DNA from: Roseovarius sp. M141
GTDB taxonomy: Bacteria > Pseudomonadota > Alphaproteobacteria > Rhodobacterales > Rhodobacteraceae
Direction of reading: 5' to 3'
DNA: 64,000 bases
Assembly (NCBI RefSeq): GCF_024355225.1
Contig: NZ_VCNH01000008.1
Span: 620,001-684,000 of the forward strand
The notes below the pieces were generated by a model. That model saw only the letters and a list, made by a program, of their open reading frames with translations, had not been told where the DNA came from and made no database searches. Shown one piece after another: positions 1,886 to 28,288 of this stretch (positions are counted from its first letter, which is position 1; the number at the start of each line of letters is the position of its first letter). The translations under genes and the position numbers were made by a program.

Positions 1886-2788
1886 TTACCTGCCGGTCGA
1901 CATGATGCGGCAAAGCTCGTCGAGCTCGTCCAGCGTCTTGTAACTGATCGTAATGACACCGCTTTCGGCCCCATCTTTATGATCAATGGACACTTTCATC
2001 CCTAGGTTAGCTGCCAGATCATCTTCCAATGCTTTGGTGTCAGCGGACTTGGTTGACGGGCGATACGCGGGCTTGCTGGTCAAGCCATCATTTGGCCTCG
2101 CAGCGTCTGCGGCCTTGCGGACCAGCTTTTCGGTATCCCGCACCGAAAGGTCGCCCGCGATGACCTTCTTGGCCAACGCAAGCGGATCAGCGGATGTGAT
2201 CAGCGTCCGGGCGTGGCCCGCCGACAGCTTGCCCTCCGTCACATAGACTTGCACCGCCTCCGGCAACTGCATCAAGCGCATTGTGTTGGCAATGTGGCTC
2301 CGGCTTTTACCCAGGGCTTCGGCCAGTTTTTCCTGCGTATGGCCGAACTTATTCATCAACTGAACATATCCGGCGGCCTCCTCGACAGGATTGAGGTCTG
2401 CGCGCTGAATATTCTCGATGATCGCGATTTCAAGGACTTCGGTGTCGTCAAAGTCCCGGATCACAACCGGGATCTGGTGCAGATTCGCCTTTTGCGCAGC
2501 GCGCCAGCGACGTTCACCGGCAACAATCTCGTAGCCCTCGCCTTTGCGACGCACAATCAGGGGTTGAATTATTCCCTTTTCCTTGATTGATGCGGCAAGA
2601 TCATTCAGCAGATCAGGATCAAAACGTCGACGTGGCTGATCGGGATTCGCCACGACACGTTCGATCGGAACCATCATATCCGGTTGGCGCGGCGCAGATT
2701 CGCCCCCAGTGGTGCGATCATTCACATCCGCCATCAACGCGGACAGACCACGCCCCAGTCCGCGCTGCCGTTGAACCTTGTCCACCAT
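1886..2788 (-). CDS. parB: chromosome-partitioning CTPase ParB
   Basis: 300 residues. The N-terminal GLGRGLSALMAD (about 10-21) is the tail that stimulates ParA ATPase. The ParB/Srx domain carries GERRWRAAQ (about 92-100), the CTP-binding/arginine patch typical of chromosomal ParB. A helix-turn-helix around KLAEALGKSRSHIANTMRL (about 150-170) reads parS, and the C-terminal 60 residues form the dimerisation domain. It lies downstream of parA (15-base gap). The two perfect parS sites at 4179 and 6072 are its expected loading sites. Role: load on origin-proximal DNA, spread as a clamp and segregate sister origins with ParA. Confidence 0.97.
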   Translation of the reverse strand: MVDKVQRQRGLGRGLSALMADVNDRTTGGESAPRQPDMMVPIERVVANPDQPRRRFDPDLLNDLAASIKEKGIIQPLIVRRKGEGYEIVAGERRWRAAQKANLHQIPVVIRDFDDTEVLEIAIIENIQRADLNPVEEAAGYVQLMNKFGHTQEKLAEALGKSRSHIANTMRLMQLPEAVQVYVTEGKLSAGHARTLITSADPLALAKKVIAGDLSVRDTEKLVRKAADAARPNDGLTSKPAYRPSTKSADTKALEDDLAANLGMKVSIDHKDGAESGVITISYKTLDELDELCRIMSTGR

Positions 2789-2803
2789 GTTACGCTCCTT
2801 CGA

Positions 2804-3613
2804 TTACGCAGCCACCGGCGCGCGGTTTTTCATCAATTCCTTCGCCAGCGCTCTGTACGCTTCGGCCCCCCTGGAATGAGGGTCATAATCCAGCACCGAC
2901 ATCGCATAGGACGGCGCTTCGCTTAGACGGACGTTCCGTGGAATGAGCGTCCTGAAAACCAAATCACCCAGATTGTCGCGCGCGTCCTTTTCAACCTGCC
3001 CCGACAGGTTATTGCGCGAATCGAACATGGTAAGCACCACGCCTTCGATACCCAGCGTCGGGTTGGCCGATTGCCGAACCTCGCGGATGGTCAGCATGAG
3101 TTGCGACAGCCCCTCCAAAGCAAAAAACTCGCTTTGAAGCGGGACCAGAACGGAATGCGCAGCCACCATCGCATTGACGGTCAGCAAATTCAGCGATGGC
3201 GGGCAGTCAATCAGCACATAGTCCAGATCATATCGGTCCATCGCCGTCTGGCGCAGCGCGTCATGCAGAAGAAAGCTGCGTTTTTCGTTCGATATCAACT
3301 CGATATCGGCAGAACTCAGATCAACTGTCGCTGGAATAACCAACAAGTTTTCCGACCGGGTCGGCTGAATAACCTGACCCAGATCTATGTCATCGAGCAG
3401 CAGATCATATGTCGTGAATTCACGGTCTTCGACTTCGATCCCCAGCCCCGTCGAAGCGTTCCCCTGGGGGTCAAGATCAACGATCATGACGCGCAGCCCC
3501 TTTTCGGCAAGGGCCGCCCCGAGATTGATCGTGGTGGTCGTTTTACCCACCCCCCCTTTTTGGTTTGCCACTGCGATAATGCGTGGCCCATTTGGACGTG
3601 TTGGATCAGGCAC
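2804..3613 (-). CDS. parA: chromosome-partitioning ATPase ParA
   Basis: 269 residues, GTG start at 3613 that overlaps the end of rsmG by 8 bases (GTGCCTGA). The deviant Walker A KGGVGKTTTT (residues 19-28) includes the signature lysine K19. DLDPQGNAS follows, and YVLIDCPPSLNLLT is the Walker B region. This is the MinD/ParA-type ATPase that forms the nucleoid gradient along which ParB-parS complexes move. It sits in an operon with rsmG upstream and parB downstream, the standard origin-proximal arrangement. Confidence 0.97.
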   Translation of the reverse strand: MPDPTRPNGPRIIAVANQKGGVGKTTTTINLGAALAEKGLRVMIVDLDPQGNASTGLGIEVEDREFTTYDLLLDDIDLGQVIQPTRSENLLVIPATVDLSSADIELISNEKRSFLLHDALRQTAMDRYDLDYVLIDCPPSLNLLTVNAMVAAHSVLVPLQSEFFALEGLSQLMLTIREVRQSANPTLGIEGVVLTMFDSRNNLSGQVEKDARDNLGDLVFRTLIPRNVRLSEAPSYAMSVLDYDPHSRGAEAYRALAKELMKNRAPVAA

Positions 3614-4214
3614 GGGACAGTTCCCTTATACTTAAAATTGCGGCGTCCGGGTCAAGATTGCTTGTAGCAACTGCATGATTGAACTTCCACTTTGTTTCTG
3701 CTTCGGACAATTCAGTGCGCCATTTGGCGCCTTTGGCGAATATACACGTCGCATCGGCATTCATATGCGGCTTTGCAAGCTGGAGTAGGCTGGCCAGATC
3801 GGCCAGCGCGCGAGCCGAAACCACATCTGCGTTCTGAGGTCTAACCTGTTCTATTCGGTCATTGATGACCGTCGCACGCGCGCCCGTCTCCCTTAAAGCG
3901 GCCCTTAAAAACGCTGCTTTTCTTGAGTCACTTTCGATCATCGTCACAGTACTGGGTGTTTTTGAAGCTTCAGACAGGATCGCCACGACCACACCAGGGA
4001 ATCCACCGCCAGATCCAAAGTCCACCCATCTGGAAAATCCCTTGGGGGCCAGGCTATACATCTGCATTGAGTCCAGTATGTGCCGATCCCAGACGACGCT
4101 CCGATCCTGTCGTGAGACCAGATTGATCTTCGGCGTCCACTTCACAACTATATCCTCAAAGGACCGAAGGCGATCAATTGTTTCACGTGAAACATCTTGC
4201 AGGAGATCGATCAT
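3606..4214 (-). CDS. rsmG: 16S rRNA (guanine-N7) methyltransferase RsmG (GidB)
   Basis: 202 residues. [14 protein letters not shown] is the SAM-binding glycine loop of the RsmG family, which methylates G527 (E. coli numbering) of 16S rRNA; loss gives low-level streptomycin resistance in other bacteria. Codons 7-12 (D-V-S-R-E-T) are written by a perfect parS site. The start ATG at 4214 overlaps the mnmG stop by four bases (ATGA), and the stop overlaps parA by 8 bases. It therefore sits in a tightly coupled mnmG-rsmG-parA-parB transcript. Confidence 0.96.
4179..4194. promoter_or_regulatory. parS centromere site (inside rsmG)
   Basis: TGTTTCACGTGAAACA, a 16-base perfect palindrome identical to the bacterial parS consensus. 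It lies in the first codons of rsmG, 560 bases upstream of the parA start. This is the expected ParB loading and spreading site; binding itself is inferred. Confidence 0.96.
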
Positions 4215-6088
4215 CCCTTACGCGCTCCAGAAGCCCGCCGAATACGCGTCAGCAGAAGCGTAAGCGCGGCCGGTGTCATCCCATCAATACGCGAAGCATG
4301 CGCCAGATTTGCCGGTCGCACTTGCTCCAGCTTAGATTTGAGCTCGTTCGACAGGCCGCCTAAGCAATTGTAATCGAAGTCCTTCGGAATCACATGGGCT
4401 GCGTCCCGCTCCAACACGGCAACATCTCGCTCCTGACGCGCGATATAATTCGAATAGAGCGCGTCTCTCTCCAACTGATCCGCAGTATCTTGATCTATGT
4501 CGGACAGCGAGGACTCCAGCCTTCGAAGATGCCCAAAGTTCGCCTCCGGAAACGCCAGAACCTGAAACCCGGTACGACGAGAGCCATCCTGGTTCACCGT
4601 AAGGCCAAGAGATTCCAGATCGCGTGGCGTAAAAGACAGGCTTTCTATGCGCCGCCGTGCAGTCGACAACTGTTCCATCTTTTTATCGAACAAAGAGCGA
4701 CGGCCGTTAGAAACACAGCCGATCTCAACCCCACGGCCCGTGAGCCGCTGGTCAGCATTGTCAGCGCGAAGCGATAGACGAAATTCAGCGCGTGACGTAA
4801 ACATGCGATATGGCTCTGATACTCCGCGCGTAATCAAATCGTCGATCATCACGCCAATATAGCTTTGCGACCGGCCAAATATCTCTGGATCCTCCCCGCG
4901 CGCGCTCAAAGCGGCATTTAGTCCCGCGACCAGACCCTGAGCCGCAGCCTCTTCATAGCCAGTAGTCCCGTTGATTTGGCCCGCAAGGTAAAGTCCACGC
5001 ACGCTCCGTACCGCAAGCGTCGCATCCAAGGCCCGCGGATCGATATAGTCATACTCAATCGCGTAGCCAGGCTGAAGAATCTCGGCCTTTTCCAACCCTG
5101 TAATCGACCTGACATATGACAGTTGCACATCCGCAGGCAGTGATGTGGAAATGCCATTCGGGTAAATCGCGTGATCTGTCAGGCTTTCCGGTTCCAGAAA
5201 AATCTGGTGGGATGTTTTATCCGCAAAACGGACAACTTTATCCTCAATTGATGGGCAATACCGCGGTCCCACGCCGTCAATGTGACCACCATACATTGCC
5301 GATTTACCAAGGTTATCGCGTATGATTTCGTGGGTGCCCTCGTTGGTTCGGGTAATGCCGCATGAAATTTGCTCTGCCTGTACAGCGCTGGACATAAAGG
5401 AAAAAAGCGTAGGACTATCATCCCCCGGCTGCTTCTCTAGAACGCCCCAGTCGATCGTACGCCCATCCAGCCGCGGTGGCGTGCCGGTTTTCAGACGACC
5501 CATGGCAAGGCCGAAGCTATCAATACGCTCTGCGAGCTTGACCGACGGCTCTTCTCCCATGCGCCCGCCCGGTCGCGAGACATCCCCGATATGGATAACG
5601 CCTCGCAGGAAGGTTCCTGTCGTCAGGACAACAGATCCTGATGAAACTTGCGATCCATCTTTTAGAATAACGCCCGAAACCTTGCTATTTTCCATCAAGA
5701 AATCAGTGGCTTCCGCCTCGATGATCGACAGATTTTTCTGATCTGTCATCTCAGCACGCATTTTGCGCCGGTAGATATTCCGGTCGGCTTGCGCTCGCGG
5801 CCCTTGAACCGCCGGGCCCTTTCGCCGGTTGAGGAGCCGGAACTGAATCCCGGCCGCATCAGCGACACGTCCCATAACACCGTCCAGCGCATCAATCTCG
5901 CGGACAAGATGCCCCTTACCCAACCCACCGATAGCTGGATTACAAGACATGACACCAATACCGGCGCGTGTGAGTGTGATCAGCCCCGTACGTGCGCCCA
6001 TTCGCGCGGCTGCATGCGCAGCCTCGCAACCGGCGTGACCGCCGCCGATAACCAGAACGTCGAAGTCATAATGTTTCACGTGAAACAC
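4211..6088 (-). CDS. mnmG: tRNA U34 carboxymethylaminomethyl-modifying enzyme MnmG (GidA)
   Basis: 625 residues, full length. The N-terminal [19 protein letters not shown] is the FAD dinucleotide-binding motif, [20 protein letters not shown] and GTFLRG are family blocks, and the C-terminal helical domain is intact. With MnmE it builds cmnm5U34 on tRNAs reading NNA/NNG codons. The GTG start at 6088 and codons 1-6 (MFHVKH) coincide with a perfect parS, so the N-terminus is dictated by the centromere sequence. Three bases separate it from mnmE upstream, so the two partner enzymes are co-transcribed. Confidence 0.97.
6072..6087. promoter_or_regulatory. parS centromere site (in mnmG start region)
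   Basis: A second perfect TGTTTCACGTGAAACA palindrome, 1.9 kb from the first. It begins one base inside the GTG initiation codon of mnmG, so the site overlaps the translation start. Expected ParB loading site, 3.3 kb from the predicted oriC. Confidence 0.96.
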
Positions 6089-8795: not shown

Positions 8796-9245
8796 CTAGA
8801 ACTTCAGAACAACGGAAAAAACGATGACAATCAGCAGAAGGGTCGGCACCTCGTTCATAATCCGGAACGTACGACCGCTGACGGTGCAGGTACCTGCTGC
8901 AAGCTCCTTGCGACGCAGGCCCAGCCATTGATGGAACCACGTCATTCCCAGCACACCGGCTGCCTTGGTCCAAGGCCAGACAGACGACCAATCGACAATA
9001 CCAGGTGTCAGAACCAGCGCCAGACCAAACAGCCAGGTGGCAACCATCGCCGGGCTCATTATCGCGCGCAGAAGTCTGCGCTCCATCACCTGGAATATTT
9101 CGTCGCGGCTGTCGCCCCTCCGCGCTGCTTCGGTGTGATAGACGAACAACCTGGGCAAATAGAACAGACCGGCCATCCAGGCGATGACCGACACGATATG
9201 AAGCGCCTTTGTCCAAAGGTAAAGCTCTGCGAGAATTGGGATCAT
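8796..9245 (-). CDS. hemJ: protoporphyrinogen IX oxidase HemJ
   Basis: 149 residues from the ATG at 9245, chosen because MIPILAELYLWTKALHIV is the conserved N-terminus and GGAG lies 8 bases upstream. A longer in-frame extension exists but runs into the AT-rich origin region and looks non-coding. Four predicted membrane helices and the conserved His in KALHIVSVIAWMAGL and Arg in LPRLFVYH fit HemJ, the membrane heme-b enzyme converting protoporphyrinogen IX to protoporphyrin IX. Its position next to oriC matches related genomes. Confidence 0.92.
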   Translation of the reverse strand: MIPILAELYLWTKALHIVSVIAWMAGLFYLPRLFVYHTEAARRGDSRDEIFQVMERRLLRAIMSPAMVATWLFGLALVLTPGIVDWSSVWPWTKAAGVLGMTWFHQWLGLRRKELAAGTCTVSGRTFRIMNEVPTLLLIVIVFSVVLKF

Positions 9246-9663
9246 GGAACGTCTCCGCCGGGATGGACTTACTAATAAATGAAAGAAATATAGAAAAAGA
9301 TGATGATTAGGTAGGGCCGCCAGACTCTGTGGATTATTGTATTCCCCACAGATCTGTCCACAGTGATCCACCCTGTGGATAACACTGTTCATTCACTGCG
9401 ACACATACGGATATAGCGTGGACAAATACCCTTGTGTATAAGGCTTTTTACCGATGTTTCTCTTTCCCTGAGGATGATCCCCGCCTTTGGGATAAACTTC
9501 GCGGCAGGTGATTCCTACAGCCGCAGATTCCATACAATCCACAGTGGTATGACACCCGCGAACGGGGCTGGCGCAGCTCGTCTGTCCCCATCTGCGTGGC
9601 GGTTGCACCAAAATGTGGATAACACGGGCCAACCCTCCCCCACTTGCTCATGGAGTTGTCCAC
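9246..9663. other. predicted chromosomal replication origin (oriC)
   Basis: A 418-base gene-free gap between hemJ and maf. Three exact DnaA boxes of the form TTATNCACA (read as TGTGGATAA at 9374-9382 and 9614-9622, TGTGTATAA at 9433-9441), two one-mismatch boxes (9328-9336; 9656-9664, which runs one base into the maf ATG), and weaker two-mismatch copies at 9342-9350, 9354-9362 and 9535-9543. An AT-rich stretch at 9269-9310 (8 G/C in 42 bases) next to the box cluster is a candidate unwinding element. GANTC (CcrM) sites occur at 9323, 9510 and 9526. Flanking gene order and parS/parAB 3-6 kb away agree with oriC. Confidence 0.88.
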
Positions 9664-10263
9664 ATGTCTGTCCGCATTATCCTTGCCTCGAACTCGGAAA
9701 TTCGCAGTACGTTGCTGCGCAATGCCGGAGTCGTCTTTGATGTGATGGGCGCTCGCGTCGATGAGGATAGCGCCAAGGCATCGCTGATCGCCGATGGCGT
9801 ATCGCCGCGTGATATCGCCGATGCCCTGGCCGAGATGAAAGCGCGAAAGATCAGCGAACGCTATCCAGAGGCTTTGGTCATAGGCTGCGATCAGGTTCTG
9901 GATCTGGACGGACTAATCCTGTCCAAACCCGGTACGCCAGAGGCCGCGATCACCCAACTGGCGCAGATGCGCGGTCAGGTCCACCGTCTGATATCCGCCG
10001 CTGTCATATGTCAGGGAGGTGCGTCTGTCTGGCGTCATGTAGGTGTTGTGCAGATGCAGATGCGTGATGTATCCGATTCCTATACGGATGATTATGTGGC
10101 GCGCAACTGGGACAGCATCCGCCATTCCGTCGGCGCCTATAAACTGGAAGAGGAAGGCGTGCGGTTGTTCGGGCGTATCACCGGCGACTATTTCCATGTG
10201 CTGGGCCTGCCCCTGCTGGAGCTGCTCGGCTTTCTGACGACGCGGGGAGTGTTGGACACATGA
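9664..10263 (+). CDS. maf: Maf-family nucleoside triphosphate pyrophosphatase
   Basis: 199 residues from the ATG at 9664, preceded by GGAG 8 bases upstream; a longer in-frame start would read through DnaA boxes and is rejected. RIILASNSEIRSTLLRNAG is the Maf N-terminal block, in the divergent alphaproteobacterial form (ASNSEIR rather than ASASPRR). VIGCDQVLDLDG carries the catalytic Asp. Maf proteins hydrolyse non-canonical or modified pyrimidine triphosphates. The stop overlaps aroE (ATGA), so it heads a maf-aroE-coaE-dnaQ operon beginning at the origin. Confidence 0.9.
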   Translation: MSVRIILASNSEIRSTLLRNAGVVFDVMGARVDEDSAKASLIADGVSPRDIADALAEMKARKISERYPEALVIGCDQVLDLDGLILSKPGTPEAAITQLAQMRGQVHRLISAAVICQGGASVWRHVGVVQMQMRDVSDSYTDDYVARNWDSIRHSVGAYKLEEEGVRLFGRITGDYFHVLGLPLLELLGFLTTRGVLDT

Positions 10264-18318: not shown

Positions 18319-21300
18319 TCAAGTTGCCCCGGTCCGATGCAGTGCAGCGGTCACGGCCTCAAGGGGCAGGGTCATCAGCGTTGCGGTGGCGGTCCAGAGA
18401 ATAGCGGTTTGGATATGGCGGTCAGGGTAGGTTTCCGCGGCCATGGCGGCGTAGGCGCCCATCTGCCGCAGCAGGCCTTCGGGGCAGTCGCCCGGGCTGC
18501 CGGGAACCAGAATGTTGGATTTGAAGTCAACGATTAGCACGGTGTCGCCGCGAATGATCAGCCGGTCGATGATGCCTTGCAGACGCCCCAGACCGGGAAT
18601 GTCGCCGATGATGCCGACCTCGGGCAGGGCATCCGGGCCCCATAGGTGGGCGAGGGACTTGTCTTGCAGGACGTGCGCCGCCTCGGCGTGCAGCGCCTCT
18701 GTCTGGGCCGGATCTGCTGCATCCGGCCCCTGGCCCAGGATGGACGCGGCTGCGCCGGGCCAGTCAGCCTCGGGCAGGGTCGGCAGGAATTCCAGCAGGG
18801 CATGGATCTGGCGGCCGCGCTTCTTGGCGGTTTCCTCGTCCTGGCCGGGATCGCCGGGCAATGCCTTGGCGCCGCCCAGATCGGATGGGCGGCGCGTTTG
18901 AACCTCGTCCGGTGGCGTGGGGGCAGGGGCACGAAAATACGGCTCTAGCTGGGTCTTTTGAGCCGGTTCCGCGACGGACGGGACTACATTGACCGCCGCC
19001 CAATCGCCGCGCTCCAGCCGCAGGCCGTCGCCGCCGTCAAAGCGGTGCGGCAACGCGCCCAGCCGCGTCATGCCTTCGCGGATCTTTGCCAGCCAGCTGT
19101 CGCCGCCATCGCCGGGATCCTTGGCCGCAGCGACGATCAGCCATTTTTCGGCGCGCGTCATCGCCACGTATAGCAGGCGATCGCGCTCGGCCTCTTGCGC
19201 GTCTTTCATGGCCTCGACGATGGCGGTCTGGGCCTCTGGCATTGCGCCCGCGCGCATGCGCCACAGCGGAGCGCCGCCGGTTTTCAGGATCTGGTCGCGG
19301 ATCGTGATCTGCCGCTTGCCCGCTTCCGGCAGGATGACAACGGGGGCCTCCAGCCCCTTGGCGCCGTGGACCGTCATCACGCGGATGCGGTCGCCGGCGC
19401 TGTCCATCTGGCGCTTGATTTCCATATCGTCGGTTTCCAGCCAGACCAGAAACCCGGTCAGGCTGTCCACCGCGCGCCGCTCGTAGGCCATTGCCTGCGA
19501 CAATAGTGCGTCGATGCCGTCCTCGGCCTCGGACCCCAGCCGGGCCAGCATGCGGCGGCGGCCATCGTGGCGCGTCAGGATACGTTCGATCAGATCATAG
19601 GGGCGCATGTATTCGGACTGATCGCGCAGATCGTTCAGGATTTGCATGGTTTCGGGGAATTCCGCCGCACGCTCGCGCAGCGCCTCCCACAGATATTTAT
19701 GCCGCCGCCCCTGCGCCAAGCCGTATAGCTGCGCCTCGTCCCAGCCGAAAATGGGCGAGCGTAGGGCAACGGCGAGCGACAGATCATCCTCGGGCGTGGC
19801 GAGAAAGGACAGGATCGCCGCCAGATCCTTGACCGCCAGTTCGCCAGCCACCTTCAGCCGGTCGGCCCCGGCGATGGGCAGATCGCGCGCTTTGCAGGCG
19901 CGGATGATCTCGTGAAAGAGCGCGGCGCGGCGCTGCACGAGGATCAGGAAATCGCCGGCGCAAACCGGACGCATGCCGTCGCCCTCGGGGATGGGCTGCG
20001 CGTCAGAGATCATTTGGGCGATGGCATCCGCGATCTGCCCGGTCAGTACGATGTCGGGGTCGCTTTCGGCGCGCACGTCGACAGGCATGTGCCATGGCGG
20101 ATCATCGGATGCCTCAGGCGCGGGTTTGACCGGCCACAGATCGACGCGGCCGGGCAGGGCGGACCAAAAGGGAATGTGGCTCTGTTCCGGGGAAAACCCC
20201 GATTCCTCGCGCCCGTGAAACGTGGCGTCGACGGTATCGAGAATGGCGCTGGAAGAGCGGAACGAATGTTCCAGCCTCTGGGTTTGCAGGGGCGTACCGG
20301 CCGCCTCCAACCGCTCGGCAAAGTCGCGCTGCATCCGGTCGAATTCGCGCGGATCGGCGCCCTGAAAGGAATAGATCGACTGTTTCTTGTCTCCGACGAC
20401 AAAGATCGTGCGCTGCACATCCTGCCGCGCGCCAAGGCCACTGGTGAATTCCTGCGCCAGCCGGTCGATCACCTGCCATTGCACCGGGCTGGTATCCTGC
20501 GCCTCGTCCACCAGAATGTGATCTATGCCGCCATCCAGCCGGAACAGCACCCACGCCGCCACGTCCGATCGGGTCAGAAGGGCCCGCGCCCGCAGGATCA
20601 GATCATCGAAATCCAGCCAGCCGCGCAGTTGTTTGGCGCGTGCATAGGCGGGCAGGAATATCTGGGCGAATTCGTGCAAGGCGGTGCTGAAATACAGCGC
20701 CTCCAGCGCGATGCGCTGCGGGCGGGCAGCCTCGACACGGTGCATCCACGCATCGATCAGATCCATCGTATCGCTCAGCGCGGCGCGGGTCGCCTTGGTC
20801 GGAAAGCGGGTGGAGACGGTGAAGGGCGCCTTGCCGGATTTCGTCAGGAATGCGTCCTCGAGGATGGGAAGGGAGCTGAAGTCCAGCGCATTGATGCGCT
20901 TCAGCTTGGCTGCAGCTCTGATGTCGTTTGTGCTGCCGACGCTCAAGGCAGATACTAACTTGGTCAATAGCTGGGTTTCATGGCCATGAAACACGTCGCT
21001 TTCGAGGCCGCGTCGCGTTGCATCCGGGCGCAGGCCCAGCGCCTTGGCCATCCCGGCCTGGGTCCAGGTTTCATCGAACAGGGGCGCCTTGCCAGCGATC
21101 TCAGCGGTCAAATCATCCAACGTTTCGCCGGTATGGTGACGCGCCAGTGCATAGAGTTTGGCCGCATCAGGACCAGCTGCGATCTGCTCGACGATCTCGG
21201 CACGCAGCAGCTTGGCGGTCCGGTCCTCCATTTCGACAAACTGCGGGCTGACCCCCGCCTCCAAAGGAAAGCGGCGCAGCAGGGAGGCGCAGAAGGAATG

Positions 21301-21672
21301 GATCGTCTGGATCTTCAACCCGCCGGGCGCTTCGATCGCGCGGGCAAACAGGCGCCGCGCATCGCGCAGGGCGGTATCGCTCAGCGGTCCGGCGACGCCC
21401 AGATCACTCAGCGCGGCGGTCAGTGTGTCCTCTTCCAGCATCGCCCACGCGCCCAGCCGCAGGAACAGGCGGTTCTGCATCTCGCTGGCGGCGGCCTTGG
21501 TGTAGGTCAGGCACAGGATATGCTGCGGATCGACCCCGTCCAGCAGCAGGCGCGCCACCCGGTCGGTCAGAACCCGCGTCTTGCCCGAACCGGCATTGGC
21601 GCTGAGCCATGTCGACATGTCCGGGCGCGCCGCTGCCATCTGGCGCAGTGTGGCATCGTCGCGCTGCATCAT
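18319..21672 (-). CDS. addA: AddA helicase-nuclease subunit (RecBCD-type repair)
   Basis: 1117 residues from the ATG at 21672, which overlaps the addB stop as ATGA (a second ATG directly follows). UvrD/Rep-type helicase: Walker A SANAGSGKTRVLTDR, motif II HILVDEAQDTSPVQW, motif III GDKKQSIYSFQGADP, motif VI YVAMTRAEKWL. The C-terminal PD-(D/E)XK nuclease has VLIVDFKSN. With AddB it resects double-strand ends for RecA loading. An upstream in-frame extension lies inside addB and is rejected. Confidence 0.95.
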   Translation of the reverse strand: MMQRDDATLRQMAAARPDMSTWLSANAGSGKTRVLTDRVARLLLDGVDPQHILCLTYTKAAASEMQNRLFLRLGAWAMLEEDTLTAALSDLGVAGPLSDTALRDARRLFARAIEAPGGLKIQTIHSFCASLLRRFPLEAGVSPQFVEMEDRTAKLLRAEIVEQIAAGPDAAKLYALARHHTGETLDDLTAEIAGKAPLFDETWTQAGMAKALGLRPDATRRGLESDVFHGHETQLLTKLVSALSVGSTNDIRAAAKLKRINALDFSSLPILEDAFLTKSGKAPFTVSTRFPTKATRAALSDTMDLIDAWMHRVEAARPQRIALEALYFSTALHEFAQIFLPAYARAKQLRGWLDFDDLILRARALLTRSDVAAWVLFRLDGGIDHILVDEAQDTSPVQWQVIDRLAQEFTSGLGARQDVQRTIFVVGDKKQSIYSFQGADPREFDRMQRDFAERLEAAGTPLQTQRLEHSFRSSSAILDTVDATFHGREESGFSPEQSHIPFWSALPGRVDLWPVKPAPEASDDPPWHMPVDVRAESDPDIVLTGQIADAIAQMISDAQPIPEGDGMRPVCAGDFLILVQRRAALFHEIIRACKARDLPIAGADRLKVAGELAVKDLAAILSFLATPEDDLSLAVALRSPIFGWDEAQLYGLAQGRRHKYLWEALRERAAEFPETMQILNDLRDQSEYMRPYDLIERILTRHDGRRRMLARLGSEAEDGIDALLSQAMAYERRAVDSLTGFLVWLETDDMEIKRQMDSAGDRIRVMTVHGAKGLEAPVVILPEAGKRQITIRDQILKTGGAPLWRMRAGAMPEAQTAIVEAMKDAQEAERDRLLYVAMTRAEKWLIVAAAKDPGDGGDSWLAKIREGMTRLGALPHRFDGGDGLRLERGDWAAVNVVPSVAEPAQKTQLEPYFRAPAPTPPDEVQTRRPSDLGGAKALPGDPGQDEETAKKRGRQIHALLEFLPTLPEADWPGAAASILGQGPDAADPAQTEALHAEAAHVLQDKSLAHLWGPDALPEVGIIGDIPGLGRLQGIIDRLIIRGDTVLIVDFKSNILVPGSPGDCPEGLLRQMGAYAAMAAETYPDRHIQTAILWTATATLMTLPLEAVTAALHRTGAT

Positions 21673-24596
21673 GGCATCTCCTGCGGGGCCGGATCGTCGG
21701 TGATGTCCCACTCGCCAAAGCGCGCAAGCTGGTCGTAATCGCCCACCTCGTCCTTGCGCTGGATCGCGCGGCGGGCCGTGTAACCCTGCCGCAGATCGCG
21801 GTAGGCAGAAATCAGATCGTGCAGGCCCTGCCAGACCTTTTCGGCGGGCTCGTTCTCCAGCGGTGCGGGCACTTCGGCAGGGGTGCTGCCAAGGCCGATA
21901 TAGATCGCGCGGGCCACATCGCAGGGCGCCAGATCACCGAACCCTGCGCGCTGGGCAATCGCGGCCTCGAGCAGCAGTTGTTTGTCAAAAATCGCCTGCT
22001 CTTTCTTCGAGGGAGGCTTGCCGGTCTTGTAATCATACAGATGCAGCCGCCCGTCCGTGTCGATGTCGATCCGGTCGGCCTCGGCCACGAGGGTAAAGCC
22101 AAGATCGGCCATCACCGCCTGCCCGCGCGCCTCGAACGCGGTGGGCGTCGCCAAGTCGCGGCGCGCGATTTCAGTGTCGATGAACCAGTCGGCGACACGT
22201 TCCAGACGGGCCAGCCACAGGGCCCGCGCCTCGGCCCAAGGCACGTCGCGCGTCAGAACCTGCTGCGCCAATTCCATGAGCGCCTCGCGTGTCAGGCGGT
22301 TGGGATCGGCGACGCTGTCCTTGATAAAGCGTTCCAGCACTTCGTGCAGGACAATGCCGCGCAGCAAGGCATCGGGGGCCTGCATCAAGGGGTTCAGCGG
22401 GCGCAGGCGCAGGACGTGCTTGGCGTAAATGGCGTAGGGGTCGCGGATCAGGCGCTTGATTTCGGTCACTGACAGGCGGTTTGGCCTGACATCCACCGGC
22501 GGGCAGGGGGCCGGGCGCGGGGCGGGCGGGATTGGGGTGACGGCCTCCAGCAAGGCGGCCTTATCCAGCCAGATCTGCCCGCGTGCACGCATGTCGTCCA
22601 GCGCGGTCTTGCCCCCTTGTTCCGGCAAGCCTGCCAGCAGGTTTTGCAGACGGTTCAGCCAGCGCGAAACGACCGTTTCGCTATCGTCCGACCGCACGCT
22701 GCGGGTGATCCACACCTCGCCCGACAGGACCGCCTGCTGGAAATCATGCGCCGCCAGGCCAATCCGCCGTTCAGGCAGCAGCAGCCCGGCCTGATGGCGC
22801 AGCGCGCGGTTCAGCCACGGATCGGGCGGCTGGGATTCCGGCCAACTGCCCTCGTTCAGGCCGGCAAGGATCAGCATGTCGGCGCCTTGAACGCGGGCCT
22901 CCAGCGTGCCCCAGATCAGGATACCGGAATGGGGATTGGTGGCGCTGCGCACTTCTTCGCCCTGCAGGATCGCGGTAAATAGGGTCGCGTAGTCGGTCGC
23001 TATCATGTCGCCGCCATGGGGCGCCTCGGCGACCAGCATATTGCAAATCTCGCGCGCCTTCTTGCCCGCGTCCTTCTGCCAAAGTTCGCTGGCCGCGCCT
23101 GTGTCGCAGCCCTGCGCGATAGCCTCGGCTGCCACGATATGAGCGTTGGCGCGTGCGTCCAGCGGTAGGGCGTCGGGTGCGTCCTGCCCGGCGATATGGC
23201 TGGCGATCCAGCCCGCCCAGTTTGCCGCCAGTGGCTCGCTCAGCGTCGCCGCCCAAGCTGTGATGTCGCTGGGTCCCGGGTAGGGCGGCCCATTGCGGCG
23301 CAGATGCAACTCCAGCTCGTGGGTCAGGCGCAGATGCGCGCCGCGTTCGCCGCCGGTATGGGTCAGCGGGTGTTTGAGCAGCGTCAGCAACGACTCGGCC
23401 GTCAGCGGCCCAAGCGACAGTTCGGCCACATGGCGCAGGAACCGGCCCGGCGGTGACAGGTGCAGCGGCACCCCGGCGCTGTCGTCGGGGAGGATGCCCC
23501 ACCGGTCCAGCGCCGCAGCAACGCGGCGCGTCAGGCTGCGGTCGGGGGTGATCAGCGCGGCGGTCTGGCCGTTCTCAGCCGCCGCGCGCAGACGCATGGC
23601 GATGCACTGCGCCTCGATCCGCTGGGAAGGGGCCTCCAGCAGGGTCACGCCCTGCATGGCGCCCACAATACCCTCCAGCCTTGGCCCTTCTTCCAGCCAT
23701 TGGTCGGTGATCGGGGCAGGGCGCAGGGCCAGCGACACAAGGCGCGCACGCGCCGGGCTGGGTGGGCGCGCCTCTGACCAGCGCTCGATCCCCTCCAGCC
23801 CCAACGCGGCGCGGAGCGCATAAAAACGATATTGCGGATGATCCTCGCTGAGCATGGGGTCGTCCAGCGCGCCCCAGACGCTGGCCCGCATGTCGAAATC
23901 ATAGCCGGGCAGAATAACCGCGCCTTGCGGCAGGTTGGCCACCGCCTGCATCAGCAGCTGAGTCGTGCCGCGCGACCCGGTGGAGCCGGCCAGCAACACA
24001 GGATGCTGTGGCGGCGCATCCTGCCAGCCGCTGATCGTGCGCCGCACCACCTGCCGCTGACGCGCCTCGGCGCCGGCCGCGCCGCGCCCTTCGGTAAAGT
24101 GGCGCACGATATTCAGAAAGGCGCGGATGCGTTCCCAATGGCCTGATTGGTCACTGATATCCAGTTGATCGATGACGTCAGGCGACACGCCCTCGCCCTC
24201 CATCTCGTCCATCAGCCTGGCAAGGCTGTCGGCCAGATCATACAGCGCGGTGCGCGGCGCCAGCCCCGGCTGCTGGTCCAGCAGGGACGAAATAAGCTGG
24301 ATCAGCTCCAGCCGCCGGCGTAGCGGCGGCGCGGGCTGGGCGATATCCGCCATCCGCCAGTCGCGCCCCAGATCGGTGACCAGCGAGATCCGGGGAAGCA
24401 GCCGCGCGGTCCCATCGCTCAGCAGCGCTTGGATGCGCCGCGCCATGCGCCTTGTGTTGACGATCAGATGCACGCGGCCCATCGCCTCGGGCGGGGTATC
24501 CCTCAGCCGGTCCAGCACGCCATCGACCAGCGCGGCGGGAAAGTCGACGCCGGGCGGCAGGCCAAAGACGCGCGCGTGTTCCGAGGGATCAAACAT
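21669..24596 (-). CDS. addB: AddB nuclease subunit (alphaproteobacterial type)
   Basis: 975 residues. The N-terminal half resembles an inactivated helicase with no clear Walker A. The C-terminal nuclease block has RIDIDTDGRLHLYDYKTGK with the PD-(D/E)XK catalytic residues. I see no C-terminal CxxC cluster like the iron-sulfur staple of Bacillus AddB. It partners AddA, encoded directly downstream with a 4-base overlap, and its ATG overlaps the murU stop by 8 bases (ATGTTTGA). Confidence 0.92.
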   Translation of the reverse strand: MFDPSEHARVFGLPPGVDFPAALVDGVLDRLRDTPPEAMGRVHLIVNTRRMARRIQALLSDGTARLLPRISLVTDLGRDWRMADIAQPAPPLRRRLELIQLISSLLDQQPGLAPRTALYDLADSLARLMDEMEGEGVSPDVIDQLDISDQSGHWERIRAFLNIVRHFTEGRGAAGAEARQRQVVRRTISGWQDAPPQHPVLLAGSTGSRGTTQLLMQAVANLPQGAVILPGYDFDMRASVWGALDDPMLSEDHPQYRFYALRAALGLEGIERWSEARPPSPARARLVSLALRPAPITDQWLEEGPRLEGIVGAMQGVTLLEAPSQRIEAQCIAMRLRAAAENGQTAALITPDRSLTRRVAAALDRWGILPDDSAGVPLHLSPPGRFLRHVAELSLGPLTAESLLTLLKHPLTHTGGERGAHLRLTHELELHLRRNGPPYPGPSDITAWAATLSEPLAANWAGWIASHIAGQDAPDALPLDARANAHIVAAEAIAQGCDTGAASELWQKDAGKKAREICNMLVAEAPHGGDMIATDYATLFTAILQGEEVRSATNPHSGILIWGTLEARVQGADMLILAGLNEGSWPESQPPDPWLNRALRHQAGLLLPERRIGLAAHDFQQAVLSGEVWITRSVRSDDSETVVSRWLNRLQNLLAGLPEQGGKTALDDMRARGQIWLDKAALLEAVTPIPPAPRPAPCPPVDVRPNRLSVTEIKRLIRDPYAIYAKHVLRLRPLNPLMQAPDALLRGIVLHEVLERFIKDSVADPNRLTREALMELAQQVLTRDVPWAEARALWLARLERVADWFIDTEIARRDLATPTAFEARGQAVMADLGFTLVAEADRIDIDTDGRLHLYDYKTGKPPSKKEQAIFDKQLLLEAAIAQRAGFGDLAPCDVARAIYIGLGSTPAEVPAPLENEPAEKVWQGLHDLISAYRDLRQGYTARRAIQRKDEVGDYDQLARFGEWDITDDPAPQEMP

Positions 24597-25281
24597 CAGG
24601 CGCGCTCAGCATGTCCTGGGCCAGCGTGATACCACCGGGATGGCCCACATCGCACCATTTGCCGGCATAGATGCAGCCGTGCAGCCGCCCCGTTGCCAGC
24701 AGTCTGTCCCAAACCATGTTCAGCGAAAACGCACCTTGCGGTGTATCCTCCAACGTCTCGGCCTTGATGATCTGGACGCCCGAGTAAATCAGGTCGGCGC
24801 CCCGCGACAGGGTGCCGTCCTCGGACCGCAGGAAATCGCCCGGGCCCACATGCCCGATTGCTTGGGTTGGGGGTAGGCACAAAAGCAGCGCATCCATGAT
24901 GTCGGGCTGCCACGCGTCGGACAGCAGGCGCAGGGGATTAGGCCCGCGCCAGACGGCATCGGTGTTCATCGTATAGATCGTGGCCGCATCCAGCATCGGC
25001 AGCGCGGCACGCAGACCGCCGCCAGTGTCCAGAATTTCCGGTGTTTCATACGCGATCTGTATGTCACGCCCGCTCAAATGCGCCGCGATCTGGTCGGCCT
25101 TGTAATGGGCGTTAACCACAATTCGCGATACAGGCACCGCCGTCGCGATATCTAGCGCATGATCCAGCAAAGGCTGCCCTGCAACCACGATCAACGGTTT
25201 TGGGCGATCCGCCGTCAGCGCGCCCATCCGTGTGCCAAACCCGGCGGCAAACAGCATTATTGCGTCTGGTTCAGTGCGCAT
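24589..25281 (-). CDS. murU: MurNAc-1-phosphate uridylyltransferase-type nucleotidyltransferase
   Basis: 230 residues. LFAAGFGTRMGALTADRPKP is the nucleotidyltransferase glycine loop and Lys of the sugar-1-phosphate family. Length and pairing with the adjacent kinase match the Pseudomonas MurU, which makes UDP-MurNAc from MurNAc-1-P in cell-wall recycling. Two starts are possible: ATG 25281, used here, overlaps amgK by 25 bases; an inner ATG at 25257 would use a TAATG junction with the amgK stop. Substrate is inferred from the operon; a hexose-1-P role cannot be excluded. Confidence 0.8.
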   Translation of the reverse strand: MRTEPDAIMLFAAGFGTRMGALTADRPKPLIVVAGQPLLDHALDIATAVPVSRIVVNAHYKADQIAAHLSGRDIQIAYETPEILDTGGGLRAALPMLDAATIYTMNTDAVWRGPNPLRLLSDAWQPDIMDALLLCLPPTQAIGHVGPGDFLRSEDGTLSRGADLIYSGVQIIKAETLEDTPQGAFSLNMVWDRLLATGRLHGCIYAGKWCDVGHPGGITLAQDMLSAPDV

Positions 25282-26267
25282 CGGCTTTTCAGATCCTCAC
25301 GGAAGGTTAATGTTGGTTCGGGCAATGCCCGGCGGACAAGCGGCGCGGCGTCGGCCATTGCGGGGTGGTTCAGATCATGCATCAGATGTGCCCAGACGCG
25401 CGGGATCAGATCGACGTAATGGGCCTTGCCATCGCGCAGGCAAAGCCGCGCAAAAACCCCGAGAATCCGAAGGTTACGCTGTGCACCCAGCACATGATAG
25501 GCCGCTTGGTACGCCGCATCGTCCTGCCCTGTCATCGAAACATACCGGTCGATCATCTGGGTCGCTAATCCGGCTGGCACATCGCGCCGCGCATCCTGAA
25601 GCAGCGACACCAGATCATAGGCCACATGCCCGCGCATCGCGTCCTGAAAATCCAGCAGGCCAACACGGGCAGCCCCAGAGCGGTCTGGCAGCCACAACAG
25701 GTTCTCTGCATGGTAATCGCGCTGGATCAGCACCTCGTGGCCTGCGCAATGCGTGGCCAGGGTCCGGGACATCACATTAATGAAGTCCGCGCGCAGAGCC
25801 GCGTCATCAGCACCAGCATACCAATCGAGAGCCAAGGCCGCCATCTGCGCCATGAGTTCGGTATCATATGACGGCAGATCGGCCGGCGCGACGGCCTTGT
25901 GCAGTTCAATCAGCACGTCAGTGGCGGCGCGGTAAAGGTCGATCTCGATTTCCGGATGCCTCGGGATGATCCGCGCAAACAGATCGTCGCCCAGATCCTC
26001 GATCAGCAGAAATCCCTGATCGATATCCTGCGCCAGAATGCGCGGTGCGCTTAGCCCAAGCGCCAAAAGATGCTCGGCAATGGTGATGAAAGGGCGCACG
26101 TCTTCGCCGCGTTCGGCCGGCGCGTCCATCAGGACGGCTGTCTCGTCGCCTTTCCGGATGCGAAGATACCGGCGGTTCGACGCATCCCCGGCCAGCGCCG
26201 CCGCAGTCGCCCCCGCCCAGACGGTTTGGCTGAGAAAATTCATGGCCTTGGCCGTGCGGTCAGTCAT
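25257..26267 (-). CDS. amgK: amino-sugar kinase AmgK-like (phosphotransferase family)
   Basis: 336 residues from the ATG at 26267 (8-base overlap with tsaE). Aminoglycoside-phosphotransferase fold: GDASNRRYLRI near the N-terminus (nucleotide loop), VLIQRDYHAENLLWLPD (Brenner catalytic loop with HxxN), VGLLDFQDAMRGHVAYDLVSL (Mg-binding DFQ). In Pseudomonas the pair AmgK/MurU recycles MurNAc straight to UDP-MurNAc and bypasses fosfomycin-sensitive MurA. The neighbour supports that role here; direct evidence is lacking. Confidence 0.82.
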   Translation of the reverse strand: MTDRTAKAMNFLSQTVWAGATAAALAGDASNRRYLRIRKGDETAVLMDAPAERGEDVRPFITIAEHLLALGLSAPRILAQDIDQGFLLIEDLGDDLFARIIPRHPEIEIDLYRAATDVLIELHKAVAPADLPSYDTELMAQMAALALDWYAGADDAALRADFINVMSRTLATHCAGHEVLIQRDYHAENLLWLPDRSGAARVGLLDFQDAMRGHVAYDLVSLLQDARRDVPAGLATQMIDRYVSMTGQDDAAYQAAYHVLGAQRNLRILGVFARLCLRDGKAHYVDLIPRVWAHLMHDLNHPAMADAAPLVRRALPEPTLTFREDLKSRCALNQTQ

Positions 26268-26739
26268 CCAGGAGATCCTCAATACGTTTTGTCCAGTTCT
26301 CGCCGCGCCATTCAAGGGTCAGCAATCGCGCGCTTGGGTCGGCAAGTGCGGCCAGCGTCAGACGAAGCGCCCCGGGTGGCGCCAGATCGCCCAGCCGGTC
26401 CGGCCATTCGATCAGACAGATCGCGCTGTCAAACGCATCGATGAGACCGAGTTCAAAAACCTCGTTTGTATCCGATAGCCGATACAGGTCCGCATGCCAG
26501 ATTTCCGATTTGGGACCGGGGTAGGTCTGAACCAGCGTGTAAGTGGGCGACGGCACGTCTTCGGGCACCGGCAGCAGAGACTGGATCAGGCAGCGGGCAA
26601 AGTGGGTTTTGCCGGCGCCGATGTCTCCTGTCAACAGCAGGACGTCCCCAGACATCAGAAGCGGCGCCAGCCGGTGGGCGATGGCGCAGGTCCGGTCAGG
26701 ACTGTCCGAGGTAAGCGTGCGTGTGTGCGACTTGTGCAT
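26260..26739 (-). CDS. tsaE: tRNA t6A biosynthesis ATPase TsaE
   Basis: 159 residues. LLLTGDIGAGKTHFARCLIQ contains the P-loop, VPSPTYTLVQTY is the conserved HPT-like segment, and EWPDRLG near residue 120 is typical. TsaE drives the TsaBD complex that puts threonylcarbamoyl on A37 of ANN-decoding tRNAs. It sits between the DivL candidate and amgK; its stop overlaps the amgK start by 8 bases. Confidence 0.94.
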   Translation of the reverse strand: MHKSHTRTLTSDSPDRTCAIAHRLAPLLMSGDVLLLTGDIGAGKTHFARCLIQSLLPVPEDVPSPTYTLVQTYPGPKSEIWHADLYRLSDTNEVFELGLIDAFDSAICLIEWPDRLGDLAPPGALRLTLAALADPSARLLTLEWRGENWTKRIEDLLDD

Positions 26740-26779
26740 GACGGGACACTACACATGGCACCGATGCCTGCAACCGCGT

Positions 26780-28288
26780 TCAGCCTGCTATGGCTGCGAC
26801 GGCTGCCTTCTGGGGTACTCCCGGCTGAGTCTGAAGGGTCATCATGCAGGCGCCGCCCGGCAGTGGCTCCAACCGGCATTGATGATTGTGACCGTGCCCC
26901 GGCACGGTTTTATGTATCCCGCCACTCTGGCCGCGCGTCCTGAGGCTGGCCTCGATGTCGCGCCAGACTGCCGGGGCAGGCAGCACGGCGGCGCAGGCGC
27001 CTATCAGATCGGGCACTGTCATATCGTCAAAGCAGATATCGGGATCGATCCCCAGCAGCCGCGTTGCCGCAGCGTTGCAGAAGGCCAGAACGTTGTCAGC
27101 GCCAATCACCATCACCGCATCTGGCAGGCAATCCAGCGCAGATTGCCGCAAGTCCAGCTGCGCCCGGAACCGCCGGGCCAGCATGACTTCGGCGCTGATG
27201 TTCTCGAACAGAAAGGCGACCGCGCCGTCGGGATGGGGCCGACCGGTGACGCGGTAGGTCACGTCGTTCGGCAGTGACCAGGTTTCCTGATACAGACCTC
27301 CCTGGGCGCTTTCGATCACGTTGCTGATTTGTGTACGCCACGTGGCGTAGCTGCGCGGTTCGGGCATGACGCGGCGGTTGCGCAGGTTGTCGAAGAAGGC
27401 CATCAGATCCGGCTGCGCGCTGAGAAAATGGGCCGGAAGCGATGTCAGATCCACCAACGCGGGATTGAACAGGGCAAGCTTTCGGTTGCGGTCGAAAACG
27501 GCGAGTCCAATGGTCAGATAGGCGAATGTCTTGGTCAGGGTCTGAACAAAGTCCTTCTGCATGGTTTCGGCTGTCACGATCTTGGTTATGTCGATGGCGT
27601 GATGCAGCACCAGCGACGGATAGGCGGCGGAATGCACTTCGTACCATACCGGGCGGCCGCCATTGACAGGGGTGATGGAAAATCGGCTGACGCTGTTCTG
27701 GTCGGGTTCCGGAATGGTCACCTCTTGCGCGTCGGGATCAAAAGCCGCGCGGCAGGCTGCATTTTGCCACAGGGTCGTGCCGTCATGGGAGGTCTTCCAG
27801 ATCGGATAGTGGGCGGCGTGCAGCACCTCTGTCTCTTCGATCAGGCGCGTGCGCTGGGCCAGCATCTGGTGTCGCTCACCGGGGCAGGAATGGGGGGGAT
27901 CGCACAGCGTTACGCGGGTTCCGTGCTGGGTGCGCAGCAGGCGCAGTTCGGCGGTGTCACCGTCTTCGCATGAGCGGATGGAAAGCCCCTGATCTTCTGT
28001 CAGATGTTTCAGCGTCTGTGGAAGGCCGGCAAAGCGCGGTTCAAACCATGCGCGCAGTTCTGGCCAGGCCAGCGATGTATTCGGTGTATCCGGCAGGGCC
28101 CCGGAATGGTGATCGAACATATGATCGTCCTGAAAGAGAAATACCGCATCATTGCCGCCAGTTGGCGAGATGCCCCGCCTGCCATGCGTTTCAGGTGTCC
28201 ACCGACCGATCAGCCACAGGACAGCGACTGAAATCGCCCCGGCCATCGCGGCCAATCCCAGCCATAGCGTCAGCGGTATCGCAGCCAT
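26780..28288 (-). CDS. divL: PAS-domain protein, probable kinase-less DivL homologue
   Basis: 502 residues. One N-terminal membrane helix (about 5-27), then three PAS-like regions at about 150-240 (YPIWKTSHDGTTLWQN), 250-350 (FAYLTIGLAVFDRNRKL) and 385-480 (LDCLPDAVMVIGADNVLAFC). No HisKA H-box or ATPase N/G boxes, unlike the longer Caulobacter DivL. A PAS protein called DivL that affects CtrA and gene-transfer-agent production is known in Rhodobacter capsulatus. Position ahead of tsaE-amgK-murU-addBA and the CtrA box upstream support this call. Exact orthology needs an alignment. Confidence 0.6.
   Translation of the reverse strand: MAAIPLTLWLGLAAMAGAISVAVLWLIGRWTPETHGRRGISPTGGNDAVFLFQDDHMFDHHSGALPDTPNTSLAWPELRAWFEPRFAGLPQTLKHLTEDQGLSIRSCEDGDTAELRLLRTQHGTRVTLCDPPHSCPGERHQMLAQRTRLIEETEVLHAAHYPIWKTSHDGTTLWQNAACRAAFDPDAQEVTIPEPDQNSVSRFSITPVNGGRPVWYEVHSAAYPSLVLHHAIDITKIVTAETMQKDFVQTLTKTFAYLTIGLAVFDRNRKLALFNPALVDLTSLPAHFLSAQPDLMAFFDNLRNRRVMPEPRSYATWRTQISNVIESAQGGLYQETWSLPNDVTYRVTGRPHPDGAVAFLFENISAEVMLARRFRAQLDLRQSALDCLPDAVMVIGADNVLAFCNAAATRLLGIDPDICFDDMTVPDLIGACAAVLPAPAVWRDIEASLRTRGQSGGIHKTVPGHGHNHQCRLEPLPGGACMMTLQTQPGVPQKAAVAAIAG

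Follow-up and report, generated by a model that had tools for sequence, protein, structure and literature searches.

The chromosomal origin of Caulobacter crescentus, Cori, was verified in the gap between hemE and COG1806, and the part of the source available to us describes DnaA boxes and an AT-rich region within ~400 bp (PMC1914354). Within the family studied here, origins were predicted with Ori-Finder for 101 Rhodobacteraceae and, in the accessible sections of that report, were judged by a skew minimum, an AT-rich gap and nearby parAB (PMC6699656); to find one in a gap of this kind is thus no surprise. How origins open has been addressed by Pelliciari et al. (2021), whose rule, as given in the excerpt consulted, requires a DnaA box, a spacer of ≤16 nt (peak 10–13) and at least three 3′-NAN-5′ trios, GAT being the main one; the rule was satisfied by 85% of 2070 origins, and deviant motifs were suspected in the rest (PMC8287927). 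According to the available part of a structural study, in the Bacillus subtilis complex Arg202 and Glu228 hold the first base of the trio (G), Asn187 holds the second (A), and T or G in the middle position performed worse than C (PMC10721633).

We analysed a 64,000-nt stretch of the marine bacterium Roseovarius sp. M141 (the window; bases 620,001–684,000 of contig C8, the main chromosome of 3,674,460 bases or 3.67 Mb), in which an origin had been predicted between hemJ and maf. This gap, of 418 bp, resembles Cori in its size, DnaA boxes and AT-rich region, and relatives of its most conserved block sit between hemE and Kinase-PPPase (which we take to be COG1806) in three distant loci (L160, L161 and L166). 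In contrast to Cori, the flanks here are hemJ and maf instead of hemE and COG1806, and a search of the window for the CtrA (TTAAN7TTAA) and IHF consensus sequences returned none. Across relatives, each of these motifs occurred in 11/74 gaps (0.15 per gap each, against shuffle means of 0.02 and 0.03). The gene order around the gap held up as originally described: Pfam supports nine flanking genes (hemJ, rho, maf, aroE, coaE, parB, parA, rsmG and mnmG), the mnmE and dnaQ calls come from translations only, and the order is kept in relatives. Two exact copies of TGTTTCACGTGAAACA, which we presume to be the parS consensus, lie within coding sequence 3–5.5 kb from the gap (Table 1).

Table 1. Positions of the features discussed, numbered within the window, with the neighbours of related blocks in distant loci.
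Feature	Position or locus	Strand	Evidence or conservation
parB + parA	1886..3613	-	Pfam
Exact parS consensus inside rsmG	4179..4194	.	Pattern match to TGTTTCACGTGAAACA
Exact parS consensus at mnmG start	6072..6087	.	Pattern match to TGTTTCACGTGAAACA
hemJ (UPF0093)	8796..9245	-	Pfam PF03653, E 4e-59
hemJ–maf intergenic region, proposed oriC of main chromosome	9246..9663	.	Box cluster unique in genome, skew switch, synteny in 73/80 named loci
Proposed DNA unwinding element, AT-rich and free of C	9273..9316	+	44 nt without C
Trinucleotide repeat, proposed variant DnaA-trios	9297..9314	+	3′→5′ GAT GGA TTA GTA GTA GAA
13-nt spacer, box to repeat	9315..9327	+	First 3′-GAT-5′ at 13 nt in 41/74, 14 nt in 9/74
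Imperfect (one-mismatch) DnaA box TAATCCACA adjoining unwinding block	9328..9336	-	≤2 mismatches in 67/74; TAATCCAC in 43/74
Exact DnaA box TTATCCACA	9374..9382	-	Not among columns listed as conserved
Exact DnaA box TTATACACA	9433..9441	-	Not among columns listed as conserved
Two-mismatch box TCATCCTCA at conserved box column	9469..9477	-	Box at ≤1 mismatch in 46/74
Exact DnaA box TTATCCACA	9614..9622	-	Counterparts at -49 in 5/80 loci: L034–L037, L058
GGAG, likely Shine–Dalgarno of maf	9652..9655	+	Likely, from the sequence
One-mismatch DnaA box TTGTCCACA	9656..9664	+	17 exact + 38 one-mismatch of 74 at column
maf	9664..10263	+	Pfam PF02545, E 2.4e-42
Distant flanks: hemE + Kinase-PPPase	L160, L161, L166		
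Distant flanks: hemE (one side tested)	L171, L172, L176		
Distant flanks: rho	L178		

With TTATNCACA as the exact consensus, we recovered the three exact boxes (starting at 9374, 9433 and 9614, all on the minus strand) and the two one-mismatch boxes (9328 and 9656) that had been reported, together with eight two-mismatch boxes (starts 9342, 9354, 9364, 9389, 9417, 9469, 9487 and 9535). Three exact boxes, or five at ≤1 mismatch, occurred in 0/2000 dinucleotide shuffles of the gap, and the box-density score was 20.0 compared with 6.5 at the runner-up place in the window. Exact boxes as such are not enriched genome-wide, since the 4.5-Mb genome holds 36 against 32 in a reversed-letter control; three of them inside 1 kb were found, in a search of the whole genome, only in the hemJ–maf gap. 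Elsewhere on the chromosome, exact boxes come within 1 kb of each other just once, as a pair 837 bp apart near 2.74 Mb (G000:C8:2738955-2739800), the next closest after those of the gap; this pair could be a DnaA-regulated or titration site. The AT-rich unwinding region characteristic of a bacterial oriC is represented by positions 9269–9310, which, as described earlier, have 8 G/C in 42 bases and form the lowest-GC 42-mer of the window. Three GANTC sites are indeed present in the gap (9323, 9510 and 9526), but the motif showed no enrichment across relatives (mean 1.34 per gap in 74 sequences compared with 1.87 in shuffles) and was rejected as a candidate.

The original prediction would have failed had the skew minimum lain elsewhere or a better box cluster stood beside dnaA. 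Cumulative GC skew within the window is lowest at 8–10 kb, and the skew changes sign, from negative to positive, at the gap. Beyond the window, skew was assessed in 20 sampled 10-kb stretches of C8: it was positive in 8/8 stretches between 0.995 and 2.459 Mb and negative in 7/7 from 2.642 Mb round to 0.446 Mb, while of the remaining five, those at 584 and 675 kb were as expected and those at 538, 720 and 812 kb were contrary. Thus, 17/20 stretches agree with an origin at the gap and 3/20 have the wrong sign, all ≤185 kb from it. These three (G000:C8 538–548, 720–730 and 812–822 kb) are perhaps inversions or recent insertions. The second skew switch lies at 2.46–2.64 Mb, an interval that includes the position diametrically opposite the gap (2.467 Mb); by the sampled skew stretches, the terminus is opposite the gap. 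Between 675 kb and 2.276 Mb, ten stretches together contain the word GGGNAGGG 16 times on the plus and twice on the minus strand; the ten others have no plus-strand and 14 minus-strand copies. Eight copies of this FtsK-orienting-type word, all on the plus strand, occur in the 9-kb piece 18664–27663 of the window, the top of the pieces counted. A generic dif pattern gave 7 matches against 9 in the control and was of no use here. The dnaA gene is 422 kb from the gap, and a single one-mismatch box was counted in the surrounding 3.5 kb, so no better cluster was found there.

Conservation was examined in named relatives, the best 80 of 272 Maf loci (Roseovarius, Ruegeria, Sulfitobacter and others). 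In 73 of these 80, hemJ lies divergently upstream of maf with a gap of 334–500 bp; of the other seven loci, six have rho, with hemJ absent there, and in one the contig ends. The 73 gaps and that of the window make up the 74 sequences used throughout. They carry on average 0.80 exact and 3.11 one-mismatch boxes, compared with 0.02 and 0.42 in shuffles. Box positions are conserved at three columns (9328, 9469 and 9656; Table 1), of which the 9469 box is conserved in relatives yet degenerate in the window. At the 9328 column, the recurrence of the same imperfect form, TAATCCAC, indicates that the deviation from consensus is itself kept. The exact boxes stressed by the original prediction fared less well, as 9374 and 9433 lie off the conserved columns and 9614 is matched in few loci. 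The box said to overlap the maf start codon, on the other hand, is present and conserved (55/74 at ≤1 mismatch): it takes up the whole 8-nt spacer that separates GGAG from the maf ATG and extends over the A of the start codon. An influence on maf expression is possible. Overall, the conserved position and architecture of an oriC were found in 73/80 loci and, by the profile search described below, in 33/36 family genomes.

Conservation peaks at the hemJ side of the gap, in a C-free plus strand ending GATGATG-N5-GTAGGG that is followed by the 9328 box. The 44-nt C-free run of the window exceeds its plus-strand runner-up of 23 nt; the longest C-free run per gap was 31–60 nt in the 74 sequences compared with a shuffled median of 20.8, and C was seen in ≤4/74 sequences at every column from 9280 to 9315. 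Locus L089 has no long C-free run. Three Thalassovita and Thalassobius loci without hemJ (L094, L104 and L108) have kept the TAATCCACA box, the spacing and the C-free run, and their repeat is degenerate. Counting away from the box, G occupies every third column, 9314, 9311, 9308, 9305, 9302 and 9299, in 65, 54, 27, 74, 73 and 67 of the 74 sequences, and GAT is the trio closest to the box in 59/74. The longest in-frame run of G-first trios reached at least three in 68/74 gaps compared with 35% of shuffles, and another scan, for G-first trios with a box and an AT-rich flank, matched 40/79 named loci.

In several respects this arrangement is like the basal unwinding system of the B. subtilis type: a box, a 13-nt spacer, a 3-nt repeat on one strand with G first, GAT nearest the box and an AT-rich run beyond. 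The TAATCCACA box at 9328–9336 has ≤2 mismatches and lies 13 nt from 3′-GAT-5′, within the spacer limit of 16. Unlike in B. subtilis, the middle base here is often T and not A, and the trios are mostly 3′-GTA/GTT/GAT-5′. At the 13-nt spacer, three or more 3′-NAN-5′ trios were not found in the window, where a NAN run of six appears only at a spacer of 17, and three canonical [GA]AT trios occurred in 0/74 gaps. By comparison, 31/74 gaps and 2/74 shuffles have at least three G-first trios at ≤16 nt from a box; the window scores only 2 under this rule because position 9308 is T.

The initiator also differs from that of B. subtilis. Aligned to 8btg, DnaA of Roseovarius sp. M141 has Tyr187 in place of Asn, with Lys202 and Glu228; residue 187 of other solved DnaA proteins is Asn (2z4r) or Gln (1l8q). 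We sought these residues in 24 Alphaproteobacteria and obtained them for 23 (none for G043), nine of which are family members. Residue 187 was Tyr in 20, Phe in 1, Asn in 1 and Val in 1, residue 228 was Glu in 23/23, and residue 202 was Lys in 22 and Arg in 1. The Asn and Val exceptions are the dnaA genes of L208 (genome G158) and L209 (G180). G158, the sole genome with Asn, carries GAT GAT GAA, a run not beyond shuffles. GAT trios are also present in the Tyr187 genomes G171 and G216, and therefore Tyr may relax the middle base but not fix it.

Simple patterns for the block matched 6, 1, 25 and 43 of the 74 sequences and were replaced by a sequence-only profile, R1, built from positions 9272–9340 of 72/74 rows. 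L064 and L080, whose blocks contain gaps, did not enter the profile; when R1 was subsequently searched, it recovered L080 (E 0.0032) and missed L064. R1 matches the window once. Used alone, it gave a match 305–337 bp upstream of maf in each of 33/36 family genomes, some of which probably represent strains already among the training rows (e.g. G021 and L087). The misses were G002, G005 and G025, the last on a contig that starts 224 bases before the Maf match. An extra match on a separate contig (G019:C104:13539-13602) comes from a fragmented draft genome with 4% contamination. In a class sample of 190 genomes, R1 matched 37 at E ≤0.01, including three family members, and at least 15 of the 34 matching genomes outside the family have the block on the maf strand, 193–4446 bp upstream of that gene. 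By E value, such near-maf matches were seen in at least 9/15 genomes at E ≤0.001 and at least 6/19 above it. Flanks were tested for 7 of the 15 distant loci, and hemE and/or Kinase-PPPase was found in 6/7.

The best G-first runs of these 15 distant loci contain 75 trios (GTT 33, GAT 16, GTA 7, GGA 7 and others 12), with T in the middle in 41, A in 21 and G in 13; in G043 and G148, GTT occurs five times consecutively. The runs had a shuffle p ≤0.01 in 13/15 loci (exceptions G158, 0.138, and G171, 0.060), although this G-periodicity is partly selected because the profile contains GATGATG. A further 20 genomes were picked by Maf alone, without an R1 match, and are thus free of GATGATG selection, while the scan itself demands G-first trios. 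In 6/20, a box adjoined by at least four G-first trios lay ≤3 kb upstream of maf, always on the maf strand, compared with 0/60 control pieces and 0/100 shuffles; the other 14/20 genomes gave no G-first match.

Together, the skew flip, the unique box cluster, the kept gene order and the presence of the block at the hemE/COG1806 position uphold the prediction of an origin between hemJ and maf. We put the probability that the main chromosome has its oriC in this gap, together with the mechanism outlined here, at about 0.9; for the place of the origin alone, the gap is almost certainly correct, with a probability above that figure. In this outline, DnaA would bind the clustered boxes, and a filament starting from the TAATCCACA box would cross the spacer, reach the plus strand and engage the repeat from 9314 to 9297 (3′→5′), capturing the G of each trio. 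The C-free run would then open towards hemJ, where the helicase would be loaded, and the box at the maf ATG would delimit the DnaA-bound region on the right. As an origin, the site is a further case of a known type; what would be new is the putative variant at the level of the element.

Our preferred, though tentative, reading of the repeat is a variant DnaA-trio, with G first and the middle base often T, paired with Tyr187 where B. subtilis has Asn; on sequence comparison, which includes a single Asn genome, we hold this at somewhat short of even odds. With the same restrained confidence, it may belong to an alphaproteobacterial variant code of G-first, in-frame trios on a C-free strand, with the middle base free (T, A or G; mostly T), in which the initiator would have changed in step with the letters of the origin. 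That code would be read by a DnaA with Asn187 changed to Tyr and with Glu228 and a basic residue 202 kept, and it could, as part of this one reading, be a case of the deviant DnaA-trios suspected in the rest of the surveyed origins, as far as the accessible text of Pelliciari et al. (2021) describes them (PMC8287927). Speaking against the trio reading are the poor performance of a middle T in B. subtilis (PMC10721633), the lack of three [GA]AT trios in all 74 gaps, the modest 31/74 under the G-first rule, the GAT trios of the Tyr187 genomes G171 and G216, the degenerate repeats of L094, L104 and L108, and the missing long C-free run of L089. A literature search of titles and abstract openings found no paper on a trio variant in Alphaproteobacteria.

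Other explanations of the same features have to be weighed. The block might be an ordinary AT-rich unwinding element with single-strand motifs of the E. coli type (TTGT, TTATT), the 3-nt repeat being a by-product without any variant code. Like the E. coli oriC element, it is AT-rich, the repeat letters deviate from the published trio letters, and 3′-(GTT)n-5′ as found in distant Alphaproteobacteria reads TTGTTG from 5′ to 3′, which includes TTGT, a motif taken from the available part of PMC10797057. Unlike the E. coli element, the repeat here stands at a kept distance of 13 nt from a box, its polarity and the G at each third base are kept as well, and TTGT is absent from the window's own repeat; we consider this explanation rather doubtful, albeit with an appreciable chance of being right. 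Reading the same letters in another frame would give a canonical middle-A trio run, 3′-GAT TAG TAG TAG AAA AAG-5′, with six such trios in the window if a spacer of up to 20 is allowed, and the NAN rule at spacers up to 16 is satisfied by 52/74 gaps. This rule is loose, however, as 23/74 shuffles satisfy it too, and the 17-nt spacer exceeds the limit of 16 stated in the consulted part of PMC8287927. Moreover, at spacers ≤16 the best NAN run of the window sits at another, weak box, and the (GTT)n repeats of G043 and G148 have no A in any frame, so we regard a canonical run as unlikely.

Alternatively, the gap could serve as a promoter region for the divergent genes hemJ and maf, its boxes being DnaA-regulated, while the origin lies elsewhere; its two divergent neighbours and the box over the maf start fit this view. 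The block nevertheless persists where hemJ is missing (L088 and L096) and also next to hemE or rho, and skew switches at the gap, which alone holds three exact boxes within 1 kb; a promoter function in place of an origin is therefore highly improbable.

For this lineage, the origin call fixes a point to which marker-frequency and cell-cycle studies can refer, and the comparison with relatives shows that conservation does not follow the conspicuous exact boxes. Should the reading of the repeat as variant DnaA-trios be true, it would explain how origins open in a large bacterial class without canonical middle-A trios, and it would make the reading of single-stranded DNA by DnaA testable through paired changes of residue and base.
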